A DNA stretch of 64,000 nucleotides, taken from NCBI RefSeq assembly GCF_023006325.1, contig NZ_JAINDF010000003.1, forward strand, positions 1-64,000, given 5' to 3'. Shown here piece by piece: positions 34,053 through 37,953 of the stretch. The notes under the pieces are model-generated. The model made no database searches. It saw nothing but the letters and a program-made list of their open reading frames with translations, and was not told the origin of the DNA. Position 1 is the stretch's first letter; each line of letters starts with the position of its first letter. The translations under genes were made by a program, and so were the position numbers. Source of the DNA: Kordiimonas marina (GTDB taxonomy: Bacteria; Pseudomonadota; Alphaproteobacteria; Sphingomonadales; Kordiimonadaceae).

Positions 34053-36653
34053 TTGCGTTTATTTAGAATGTGCGTTGTGTGGCGCTTGTTTCTTGCGTTC
34101 ACAGTAGGGGGATTAACGCTCACTGGGTCTGTGTCCGCGCAGGATCAGGTAGCTCGTCAAATCCCAACAATTCGTCAGATCAACGTGGTCGGTAACGAAC
34201 GCGTGGAGCCGGAAACCATTGCTTCCTATCTGGAAGTGAAGCCTGGCGACCCGTTTGACCAGGCCCGTCTTGACGCCAGCCTGAAAAACTTGTTCGCGAC
34301 CGGCCTCTTCTCCGATGTCCAATTTTCGGAAGACAATGGTGCACTGGTTGTTCGCGTGGTCGAAAACCCGATCATCAACCGTATCGTGTATGAGGGTAAC
34401 AAGCACCTCAAGGACGACAAGATCAAGGATGAGGTCCAGCTGAAGCCGCGTATGGTCTTCACCCGTGCGAAAGTCCGCGCGGATGTGCAGAAGATCATGG
34501 ACCTCTACCGGACCAAGGGCCGCTTCGCCGCCATCATCGAACCGAAGGTGGTGCAGCTGGAGCAGAACCGGGTCGATCTCCTGTTCGAAATTCAGGAAGG
34601 TCCGAAGACCAAGGTTCGCCGCATCAATTTCCTCGGCAACCACCGCTACAGCGATGGCGACCTGCGCAAAGTGCTGGCCACCAAGGAAGCGCGCTGGTGG
34701 AAAATCTTCACCTCGAACGACACGTTTGACCCGAACCGTCTGGCATACGACCAGCAGGTCCTGCGCCAGCATTATCTCAACGAAGGCTATGCCGACTTCC
34801 GCGTGGTCTCCGCCGTGTCCGAGCTGACGCCGGACCGGAAGGACTTTTTCATCAACTTCACGGTGGAAGAGGGCGAGATTTATACCTTCGGCAAGATCGA
34901 TGTGGAAAGCGAGATCAGGGACGTTAACGCGAACCTGCTGCGCGCCTTCCTGCTGATGCGTGAAGGCATGACCTACAACGCCGAGTCGATTGAAAAGACG
35001 ATTGAATCGCTGTCGAACGCAGCAGGCCTCCTTGGCTACGCCTTCGTCGACGTGCGGCCGCAAATCCGTCGTGACAAGAAGACGCGTAAGATCAACATCA
35101 CCTTCAAGGTGCTGAACGCACCGCGGGTGTATGTGGAACGTATCAATATTCACGGCAACGTTGCGACGCTCGACCGGGTGATCCGGCGCGAATTCCGTTT
35201 GCAGGAAGGCGATGCCTTCAACTCGGCCTTCGTGAAGCGGTCGGAAACCCGCCTCAAGCGTCTGAACTTCTTCCGTAACGTCGAAGTGAACCAGGAGAAG
35301 GGCAGCAAGCCCGACCGCATGGTGCTGGACGTCAAGGTGGAAGAGCAGCCGACAGGTGAATTGAACCTCGGTGCGGGCTTCTCCAGCCTTGAAAACTTCA
35401 TCTTCGACTTCTCGGTCAAGCAGCGGAACTTCAAGGGCCGCGGCCAGACCCTGAACCTGGGCCTGCGTCTGTCCGGCCTTAGCCAGCAGATCAACTTCGG
35501 CTTTACGGAACCGTATTTCCTCGGCCGGAACATCGCTGCAGGCTTTGACATCTTTGCTCGCCGGACCCAGTCGTCGACTTATGCCAGCTCGTTTGACACC
35601 AAATCGTATGGCTTCTCGCTCCGCGGCGGTCTTGCGGTCAGTGAATACTGGACCTTGTCGACGCGCTATACGATCCGTCAGGATGACACGACCATTCCGT
35701 CGTCCTATGTGAACAGCTATTTCCAATCGTTCCTGCAAAGCGTTACGCCGAACAGTACGATGACGGATACGCAGATCCAGGAACTGCTGGACCTGTATGA
35801 CACCAACAATGACGGCCAGGTAACGGCGCTTGACTTCGATACCAACGGCGACGGTTCGCTCAGTTCCGCGGAACAGAGTGCAGCCGGTTTGCCACGCTAC
35901 CTGAAGGAAGCGGAAGGAAAACGCTGGCAGTCGATCTTCGGCTATACCCTGGCGTATGATACGCGGAACAGCGTCATTCATCCGACCCGCGGTCATTCCT
36001 TGTACTTCAGCCAGGATTTTGCCGGCCTGGGTGGCGATGTTCGCTACCTGCGCAGCAAGGTCAACTTCGACAACTATTGGACACCGTGGGCAGGTTGGAC
36101 CTTCCGTCTCGGTGGCGAGGCCGGTGTGATGCAAGGGCTGGGTCAGAAGATCCGTCTGACCGACAAGTTCTATATCGGTGGCCCGCGTATCCGTGGTTTC
36201 GATACGTCCGGTATCGGTCCGCGTGACTTCTCCTACGGCGCGAACAGCGCTACTGGGGCACTCGGTGGTACGGCCTACTATATCGGTAGGGCTGAGCTCT
36301 TCTTCCCGCTTGGGGATGCGGCGCTTGAATCGGGCATTAATGCCTCCGCCTTTATCGATGCAGGCTCGCTATTCCGTTCACAGGAAGAAACGGCTTCGTT
36401 CCAGAAGTGTGATTTCGGGATCAGCGACTATCAGGCTTACCAAGATGCGGTTGCCAATGGTTCTAGTAATGTTCCGAGTTTGAACATGAACTGTTTGGCT
36501 GGTGACTCGCCGGCACCGCGTATCGCGATCGGTATCGGTTTCTCGTGGCAATCCCCGTTCGGTCCGTTCCGGATCGACCTGGCGAAAGCTATCAAGAAAC
36601 AACTGGGGGACAGAACCCAGACGCTCCAATTCAATGTGGGCACCACTTTCTAA
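34053..36653 (+). CDS. bamA: Outer membrane protein assembly factor BamA with EF-hand insert
   Basis: The Omp85 insertase for outer-membrane proteins (866 residues). A signal peptide ends at VSAQ, five POTRA domains run to about residue 440, and a 16-strand barrel follows, with RGFDTSGIGPRD as the VRGF/Y-type motif in loop 6. Unusually, about 70 residues (546-617) are inserted between two barrel strands and contain two EF-hand-type calcium loops (583-594 and 596-607). The start is TTG 34053 or ATG 34068; both give a signal peptide. Confidence 0.95.
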   Translation: MRLFRMCVVWRLFLAFTVGGLTLTGSVSAQDQVARQIPTIRQINVVGNERVEPETIASYLEVKPGDPFDQARLDASLKNLFATGLFSDVQFSEDNGALVVRVVENPIINRIVYEGNKHLKDDKIKDEVQLKPRMVFTRAKVRADVQKIMDLYRTKGRFAAIIEPKVVQLEQNRVDLLFEIQEGPKTKVRRINFLGNHRYSDGDLRKVLATKEARWWKIFTSNDTFDPNRLAYDQQVLRQHYLNEGYADFRVVSAVSELTPDRKDFFINFTVEEGEIYTFGKIDVESEIRDVNANLLRAFLLMREGMTYNAESIEKTIESLSNAAGLLGYAFVDVRPQIRRDKKTRKINITFKVLNAPRVYVERINIHGNVATLDRVIRREFRLQEGDAFNSAFVKRSETRLKRLNFFRNVEVNQEKGSKPDRMVLDVKVEEQPTGELNLGAGFSSLENFIFDFSVKQRNFKGRGQTLNLGLRLSGLSQQINFGFTEPYFLGRNIAAGFDIFARRTQSSTYASSFDTKSYGFSLRGGLAVSEYWTLSTRYTIRQDDTTIPSSYVNSYFQSFLQSVTPNSTMTDTQIQELLDLYDTNNDGQVTALDFDTNGDGSLSSAEQSAAGLPRYLKEAEGKRWQSIFGYTLAYDTRNSVIHPTRGHSLYFSQDFAGLGGDVRYLRSKVNFDNYWTPWAGWTFRLGGEAGVMQGLGQKIRLTDKFYIGGPRIRGFDTSGIGPRDFSYGANSATGALGGTAYYIGRAELFFPLGDAALESGINASAFIDAGSLFRSQEETASFQKCDFGISDYQAYQDAVANGSSNVPSLNMNCLAGDSPAPRIAIGIGFSWQSPFGPFRIDLAKAIKKQLGDRTQTLQFNVGTTF

Positions 36654-36675
36654 GAGAGATCATAGGGATAATATA

Positions 36676-37278
36676 ATGGCTAACATCATGAAAACGCTTA
36701 AGCTTGCTGTCATCGGCCTTGTTGCTGCTGCAAGCGTTACCGGGGCTGTCAGCGCACAGATCTTGATCGTTGACGATCAGCGGGTCGAGCGTGAGGCCGC
36801 TGCCTACAAAGACTTCAACCTGCAAACCAACGAGCTGCGGAACAACATCCTCGAGCTTCGCAAGTTCGTCACCCGTGGCGGTGTGGTTGAGCAGAAGCTG
36901 GCTGATCTTGAAAAGCGCAAGTCGATCATCGGCAATGACAAGTATGAAGCCGAAAAACACCAGCTCGAGCAGCAGTATGTGAAGGCTCAGAATGCACTTC
37001 AGCAGCTTGAATATACCTTCGACAAACTGCGCCAGGAAGCCATGGTTCAGGTTGAACGTGCCCGCCAGCCGGTGATCCGCACGATCCTGAAGGAGCATAA
37101 GGCTCAGATCATCATGCTGAAGCGCCTGGTTCTTGGCTCTGCTGCTGGCCTCGATGTCACCACCGAGTTCATCGAGAAGCTCGACGCTCAACTGCCGAAC
37201 GTGACCATCAGCCTGCCCAAGCAAGGCGCAGCGCCAGCCGCGAAGCCTGCTGCCAAAACCGGCGACCAGAAGAAATAG
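36676..37278 (+). CDS. OmpH/Skp family periplasmic chaperone
   Basis: A 200-residue secreted protein with a signal peptide (cleavage after VSA, about residue 27). It is followed by long charged helices (about 55-150) that would form the Skp tentacles holding unfolded outer-membrane proteins for BamA. A Pro/Ala/Lys-rich tail ends the protein. The position directly after bamA is the usual one. Start at ATG 36676 or 36688. Confidence 0.88.
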   Translation: MANIMKTLKLAVIGLVAAASVTGAVSAQILIVDDQRVEREAAAYKDFNLQTNELRNNILELRKFVTRGGVVEQKLADLEKRKSIIGNDKYEAEKHQLEQQYVKAQNALQQLEYTFDKLRQEAMVQVERARQPVIRTILKEHKAQIIMLKRLVLGSAAGLDVTTEFIEKLDAQLPNVTISLPKQGAAPAAKPAAKTGDQKK

Positions 37279-37293
37279 TAAGTAGGTCCTACG

Positions 37294-37734
37294 ATGGAAT
37301 TCGACATCCAGAAAATCATGGAGGCGATCCCGCATCGCTATCCATTCCTCCTGGTGGACAAGGTCGTTGACGTGGTGCCGGGCGAAAGCTGCACCGGCAT
37401 CAAGAACGTCACGATCAACGAGCCGTTTTTCCCGGGGCACTTCCCGCAGAAGCCGGTGATGCCGGGGGTTCTGATCCTGGAAGCCATGGCGCAGACCGCT
37501 GGTGTGTTGGCCATTGATTTCCTGGGTGACGATGCCAAGGGTAAGGTGGTCTACTTCATGGCGATCGACGGCGCCAAGTTCCGGAAGCCCGTAGGCCCCG
37601 GCGACAGGCTCGAGATGAAGCTTGTGAAACAGCGTGGCCGTGGGGCCGTCTGGAAGTTCTCCGGCGAAGCCTATGTGGACGGCACGCTTGTCGCGGAAGC
37701 TTCACTGACCGCGATGCTGGGGGCTGAAGGATAG
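37294..37734 (+). CDS. fabZ: 3-hydroxyacyl-ACP dehydratase FabZ
   Basis: Hot-dog-fold dehydratase (146 residues) of fatty-acid elongation. Active-site residues are H49 in FFPGHFP and E63 in [21 protein letters not shown] is also typical. It comes 15 bases after the Skp gene. In many proteobacteria lpxD lies just upstream and lpxA/lpxB just downstream; here neither is present and a terminator follows directly. Confidence 0.96.
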
Positions 37735-37758
37735 GCTCCTTGAAATTCAGGACTATAG

Positions 37759-37784
37759 AAAGCGGCCTTCGGGCCGCTTTTTTA
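37759..37784 (+). terminator. Terminator after fabZ
   Basis: The stem AAAGCGGCC with GGCCGCTTT closes a TTCG tetraloop and is followed by more T. It ends the bamA-skp-fabZ transcript. Confidence 0.93.
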
Positions 37785-37890
37785 TTGGGCAATGCGTCGC
37801 CGCCACCTGGGTTGCATGTGTATAGGTGAGGGCGACGGCCTGGTCCCGGAGGTCAGGTGCGCGTATAGGCTATCGCTGTCGCTCTCAGGG
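37785..37890. other. Spacer between convergent terminators
   Basis: About 105 bases lie between the fabZ and gltA terminators. I see no gene or RNA here. This is the position where lpxA would stand in many relatives. Confidence 0.5.
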
Positions 37891-37929
37891 CACAAAAAGA
37901 AAGGGCCGGCTCAGATGAGCCGGCCCTTT
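37891..37929 (-). terminator. Terminator after gltA
   Basis: A long near-perfect palindrome (AAAGGGCCGGCTCA against TGAGCCGGCCCTTT) is followed on the minus strand by CTTTTTG. It ends the gltX-gltA transcription unit. Confidence 0.9.
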
Positions 37930-37953
37930 GTCTTGATAGTTTTGGTGTGCCGC

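Follow-up and report, generated by a model that had tools for sequence, protein, structure and literature searches.

A long extracellular loop 4 with two EF-hand-type loops in BamA of Kordiimonas marina: a candidate calcium-stabilised surface element

BamA of Kordiimonas marina, encoded in the 64,000-nucleotide stretch of DNA analysed here (the window), carries in extracellular loop 4 (L4) an insert with two EF-hand-type loops. This insert is a real, conserved and lineage-specific element of the BamA surface and, as judged from its sequence and a structural model, most likely binds calcium. We propose that it acts as a lineage-specific, calcium-stabilised cap that orders L4, a predicted structural role to which we give a probability of roughly 0.6. 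BamA is essential, and L4 is an outside loop reported to be needed for the function of the E. coli BAM complex (PMC3871556). With a metal site built into L4, there would be a handle on the action of this outside loop on the insertase, since supplying or withdrawing calcium might order or loosen it. Should the loops indeed bind calcium, BAM would have calcium on its outer side in a second case besides Flavobacterium, here by a route other than the BamM subunit and in an order with no LpxC in the genomes sampled; outer-membrane building may then depend on the calcium around the cell. A literature search that covered titles and the beginnings of abstracts, with few subscription papers and no preprints, gave no description of an EF-hand in BamA among the papers listed, and one may exist; the words "calcium" and "Ca2+" have no occurrences in the main text of a 2026 BAM review (PMC13067283).

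The bamA gene and the position of its insert

The open reading frame at 34053-36653 on the forward strand encodes a BamA equivalog (TIGR03303, E 1.7e-225, 750.8 bits against a cut-off of 297.15, residues 39-866), with five POTRA stretches and an Omp85 domain above their Pfam cut-offs. The RGF motif of L6, I713-R714-G715-F716, aligns with V660-R661-G662-F663 of E. coli. The protein length of 866 residues is counted from a TTG start; an in-frame ATG at residue 6 (34068), within the TTG-start stretch 34053-34070, lies upstream of the apparent signal peptide and may be the true start. Upstream of bamA are uppS, dxr and rseP, downstream is fabZ, and gltA and gltX lie nearby on the opposite strand. 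An open reading frame at 36502-37278, placed between bamA and fabZ, had no NCBIfam match at 1e-10 and is taken for skp by its position only. The insert and its surroundings comprise the following features, in which model numbering refers to a model of residues 420-866:

34053..36653, + strand: bamA, 866 aa, POTRA domains and Omp85 barrel, TIGR03303
35649..35693, + strand: barrel strand 7, before L4; residues 533-547, model strand 114-128
35700..35888, + strand: L4 insert proper; residues ~550-612, absent from L030-L032 (same order, outside the family), from E. coli and from 60/60 class barrels
35700..35744, + strand: first insert helix; residues 550-564, model helix 131-145
35766..35798, + strand: entering (E-type) helix; residues 572-582, model helix 153-163
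35799..35834, + strand: calcium-type loop 1; residues 583-594, D-x-N-x-D-G-x-V-x-x-x-D, pattern in 25/27 family sequences
35838..35873, + strand: calcium-type loop 2; residues 596-607, D-x-N-x-D-G-x-x-x-x-x-E, pattern in 21/27 family sequences
35865..35888, + strand: exit helix; residues 605-612, model helix 186-193
35889..35918, + strand: L4 cap helix with Gly; residues 613-622, LPRYLKEAEG, by E. coli alignment; model helix 196-201
35916..35960, + strand: barrel strand 8, after L4; residues 622-636, model strand 203-217

We modelled BamA residues 420-866 with AlphaFold2 from 61 sequences and without ions (mean pLDDT 86.6, pTM 0.80). In structure comparison, the modelled barrel resembled E. 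coli BamA structures, with a best E of 8.0e-26. Between strands 7 and 8 the model contains helices at 550-564, 572-582, 592-595, 605-612 and 615-620, and the 10-residue pLDDT means of the insert in this barrel context are 88, 89, 88, 92, 93, 90 and 78. The end of the window L4, LPRYLKEAEG (613-622), lines up with VAMWRYLYSMG of E. coli K-12, which ends at G553; in this alignment the insert directly precedes the L4 helix, and the antibody-epitope residue H555 directly follows that helix. Because strands 7 and 8 flank the insert in the model and the alignment puts it before the E. coli L4 helix, both place it in extracellular L4, ahead of a helix common to E. coli. In the model, the exit helix of loop 2 leads into this L4 helix. 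A periplasmic location is ruled out by two observations: the insert comes after strand 7 in the model, and the alignment matches its position to L4 of E. coli.

The first-pass annotation had assigned the insert to an outside-facing loop, which these results bear out, and had described a helix-like segment ahead of the two loops, for which a helix is predicted at 572-582. Its boundaries, residues 546-617, were drawn somewhat wide: the insert is present, but 546-547 still belong to strand 7 and the insert proper spans about 550-612. A periplasmic or disordered prediction had been named as grounds for abandoning the idea. Neither was obtained in the barrel context, whereas a model of the isolated insert showed comparable helices with low confidence (pLDDT 63, pTM 0.36). 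For this weak isolated model no fold match was significant: Foldseek matches had E-values of at least 1.7 and VIA-align Z-scores were at most 3.0; among the 50 Foldseek matches listed, all in that E range, we take 49 to be EF-hand or calmodulin-derived, and one is a nucleosome.

Compared with BamA/Omp85 of E. coli and Neisseria, the window protein shares the POTRA domains, the barrel, the L6 RGF motif and the L4 helix with its glycine, and differs in that ~60 residues bearing two calcium-type loops are added ahead of the L4 helix. The BAM complex of Flavobacterium johnsoniae, as described in PMC12611786, is similar in that its BamA has a lineage-specific extension of an outside loop and calcium is found on the outer side of the complex. 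In contrast to the window protein, its 76 extra residues are located in L5, not L4; this extension holds the subunit BamM, and seven metal ions, assigned as calcium, are in BamM and not in BamA (PMC12611786).

Two calcium-type loops and their conservation

The two 12-residue EF-hand-type loops occupy residues 583-594 and 596-607 and are separated by one residue. All of the loop residues named in the first-pass annotation (D583, N585, D587, G588 and D594; D596, N598, D600, G601 and E607) are correct. Shuffling residues 546-622 200,000 times or the whole protein 20,000 times never reproduced the two-loop pattern, which therefore lies beyond chance. Four Pfam EF-hand models match the window loops at E 1.8e-4 to 5.9e-4, each under its curated cut-off (EF-hand_5, 21.3 bits against 25.9; EF-hand_7, 22.1 against 30; EF-hand_1, 20.4 against 25.4; EF-hand_6, 19.8 against 25). 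At E 0.05, EF-hand_5 matched nine, EF-hand_7 five, EF-hand_1 four and EF-hand_6 two of 25 family members. A profile of nine BamA inserts compared with the PDB ranked calmodulins first among the best 60 of 508 sequences at E ≤1. The best whole-sequence E, 9.8e-11, adds up four weak stretches, of which the strongest listed has E 0.014.

For 27 BamA sequences of the window's family, a number that includes the window itself and near-copies such as L017/L018 and L021/L022, we defined an intact loop 1 by D1, D/N/S3, D/N/S5, I/L/V8 and D/E12 and an intact loop 2 by D1, D/N/S3, D/N/S5 and D/E12. The EF-hand ligand positions 1, 3, 5 and 12 together with a hydrophobic position 8 are found in loop 1 of 25 sequences; position 8 is I, V or L in all 27, and position 12 is Asp in 25. 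Loop 2 keeps positions 1, 3, 5 and 12 in 21/27, with a hydrophobic position 8 in some and not all, and both patterns are intact in 20/27. Calcium-ligand residues are thus conserved throughout the family (loop 1 in 25, loop 2 in 21). We prefer these counts to those of a looser pattern with overlapping matches, which gave two motifs in six of nine sequences. Ten marker positions, consisting of positions 1, 3, 5 and 12 and Gly 6 of both loops, have a mean majority share of 0.81, against 0.41 at the remaining insert positions, and none of 100,000 permutations was as high. The two exceptions for loop 1, L028 and L029, are paired on the tree; L029 retains loop 2 and L028 has neither loop. The long L4 of L028 (genome G025) contains two cysteines. 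Loop 2 of L005 and L006 has four residues more than that of the window, and the second site is therefore variable in shape.

With calmodulin-type EF-hand pairs, the window loops share the 12-residue ligand loops, an entering helix and the hydrophobic position 8 of loop 1. They differ in being one residue apart, with only a four-residue helical turn (592-595) between them in the AlphaFold2 model, where full helices do not stand on both sides of each loop, and in ending loop 1 (position 12) with Asp rather than Glu, a difference that usually weakens calcium binding. The back-to-back spacing is, as stated in the first-pass annotation, unlike that of a normal EF-hand pair. Dockerin type I and thrombospondin type 3 repeats, like the window insert, combine closely spaced calcium loops with a D-x-N-x-D-G-x-I/V-x-x-x-D loop that is followed by a hydrophobic residue. 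The likeness to dockerins suggested at first is weak; it holds for the Asp at the last position of loop 1, but the Dockerin_1 model matches just two of 25 family members at E 0.05 and scores 13.8 bits in the window, under its cut-off of 22.9. A likeness to thrombospondin type 3 comes from the general loop pattern, with no TSP3 model among the Pfam matches of the window.

Distribution, single origin and variability

All 27 BamA sequences read from the window's family have a long L4. They derive from 29 family genomes searched; the other two, G022 and G024, are 93% complete and split into many contigs, and their missing BamA match probably reflects assembly gaps. We call the family Kordiimonadales because of its named relatives with a long L4, Pseudokordiimonas caeni, Kordiimonas sediminis and Eilatimonas milleporae. 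Five metagenome-assembled genomes (L033, L034, L037, L039 and L040) also have it. The relatives L033-L040 are not extra independent cases, since their L4 strings are identical to those of eight of the 27. A frameshift or assembly artefact is ruled out by the open frame that runs through the insert in 26 other family genomes.

Outside the family, the match to window BamA breaks at 545-567 in 30 genomes of the order and resumes at 594-627 in 29 of them, and the three sequences read from these 30 (L030-L032) have a short L4. BamA was matched at 1e-60 in 106 of 115 class genomes. We read L4 in the 60 best-scoring of 104 genomes outside the window's genome and order, passing over G101 and G170, and its length, flanking strand ends included, was 35-39 residues in 57 of them. 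Mapping the insert on a BamA alignment of relatives, a check proposed in the first-pass annotation, gives 27/27 in the family and 0/60 among these BamA sequences of other families in the class. In one of the 60, L154 (genome G061), L4 carries two cysteines and one DTDGDG motif, which may be an independent gain of a similar element. We placed 50 BamA rows (27 of the family, three of the order and 20 of 72 other relatives) on a tree constructed with the insert columns left out; a single change, on a branch supported by an SH-aLRT of 100, accounts for the long L4, and on this tree the two-loop insert was gained once. The insert profile, used to look for a donor protein in the window's genome, matched bamA alone at E 0.01.

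The 72 relatives outside the family (L041-L112), mostly sphingomonads, have a short L4. Two or more cysteines are present in the L4 of 69, and 25 carry a single calcium-type motif, D-x-[DNS]-x-[DNS]-G, there; in the same 72 relatives, this motif occurs nine times in ~29,700 residues of the rest of the barrel, against 25 sequences in ~3,060 L4 residues. The short form thus shares with the window a calcium-type motif in the same loop, and differs in its single motif, its short loop, its cysteines and its place on the tree, where the long form lies on the opposite side. From this distribution we infer that L4 in this order seems prone to gain stabilising elements, either disulfide or calcium.

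Among ten BamA stretches measured, the insert varies most, with a majority share of 0.47 (L7 0.54, L3 0.55, POTRA 0.85). Nonsynonymous change (pN) is higher in the insert than in the strands in 9/9 pairs; in several of these, synonymous sites are saturated or nearly so. The Nei-Gojobori ratio of the insert is 0.01-0.29 in the six of nine pairs that gave a ratio, three being saturated, and these values are rough because synonymous change is high. They suggest that the insert is under purifying selection. A diversifying-selection arms race left no sign in the six pairs, and in view of these ratios it is unlikely to be the main cause of the variability.

Possible roles and accompanying features

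In the cap that we propose, each intact loop would bind one calcium ion after reaching the outside, and the ions would staple the acidic insert segment into a rigid unit. The exit helix would transmit this rigidity to the L4 helix above the barrel mouth, such that calcium would keep L4 in the shape required by BAM without any switching. Loop 1 would be the main site and loop 2 dispensable. The family-wide long L4 (27/27), its one origin and the conservation peak at calcium-type positions argue for such a cap. Against it stand the loss of the loop 2 pattern in 6/27 and of the loop 1 pattern in 2/27, with L028 lacking both, as well as the Asp that ends loop 1, usually a weaker calcium ligand than Glu, the EF-hand Pfam scores under cut-off, the low confidence of the isolated insert (pLDDT 63) and the faster evolution of the insert than of the strands. 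In E. coli, deletion of L4 is reported to yield a folded protein that fails to make up for BamA depletion, and inserting a linker at W546 to have a severe effect (PMC3871556); the latter implies that E. coli L4 is not simply tolerant of extra residues. The antibody MAB1, which binds E. coli L4, inhibits BAM, and the changes that confer resistance are far from L4, for which its authors speculate about an allosteric cause (PMC6287456).

The membrane in which the insert acts deserves consideration. The region that here lies downstream, between bamA and gltA, is the usual place of lpxD, lpxA and lpxB. No lpx genes are present at 36654-37953 of the window, from the skp-like open reading frame to gltA, and these three genes are missing from their usual place, since only the skp-like frame and fabZ fit between bamA and gltA. 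LpxC scored above cut-off in none of 59 genomes searched, the window's included, with one match under cut-off in G011; in the window's genome (G000), LpxB was not found and LptD was. The insert thus probably acts in an outer membrane without lipid A, a condition known from Sphingomonas (PMC11324152). Loss of LpxC as a specific partner of the insert is unsupported: LpxC is missing across the sampled order, and its absence therefore does not explain a family-specific insert.

Instead of a static cap, the insert could be a calcium switch, in which loss of calcium from L4 would alter the barrel gate and BAM activity would track external calcium or, in a variant, new BamA would become active only after L4 reaches the calcium-rich outside. 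The Asp that closes loop 1 at position 12 in 25/27 sequences would suit a weaker, millimolar site of this kind. The inhibition of E. coli BAM by an L4 antibody, with resistance changes distant from the loop (PMC6287456), is also compatible with it. Loop 2, however, is gone in 6/27 family sequences. Calcium is moreover steadily present in sea water, and for the Kordiimonas group, which we take to be marine, a near-constant level would leave little to sense; for this reason we favour the structural cap and consider the switch, both variants taken together, unlikely. Further-reaching is a calcium-licensed BAM, whose BamA would be inactive or mis-gated until its L4 insert had passed through the membrane and taken up calcium outside. 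We regard this as a speculative proposal and rather improbable; if true, the insertase would sense that it has been placed correctly, in an outer leaflet rich in calcium and probably without lipid A.

Two other readings look outward from the barrel. Calcium held by L4 might also touch acidic groups of sphingolipids, which possibly replace lipopolysaccharide in the order; the LpxC result (0/59) and the missing LpxB of the window's genome agree with this, as does a sphingolipid that seems essential in the LPS-lacking Sphingomonas koreensis (PMC11324152). Yet LpxC is missing throughout the sampled order while the long insert is confined to one family, and we judge a lipid bridge very unlikely. 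We give equally little credence to a bulky and variable loop that would hide the L4 helix and so serve as a shield or decoy against phages or toxins acting at the surface. L4 of E. coli is an exposed epitope (PMC6287456) and the variability of the insert (0.47) fits a shield, but the Nei-Gojobori ratios of 0.01-0.29 in 6/9 pairs and the family-wide retention of calcium-type positions speak against it. That the insert is a chance linker rich in Asp, Asn and Gly and free of metal would account for the Pfam scores under cut-off, the loop 2 losses in 6/27 and the weak isolated model; with conservation concentrated at calcium-type positions, a confident fold in the barrel context and 0/200,000 shuffles with the pattern, it is highly improbable. 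We accordingly retain the calcium-stabilised cap as the preferred reading.

Two further features accompany this BamA. In the L7 region, C786 (36408-36410) and C814 (36492-36494) are invariant in 25 family BamA sequences and likely form a disulfide. Elsewhere in the genome, at G000:C11:458844-459719 (L002), a second Omp85-domain protein is encoded in an open frame of 656 aa, which is possibly TamA.
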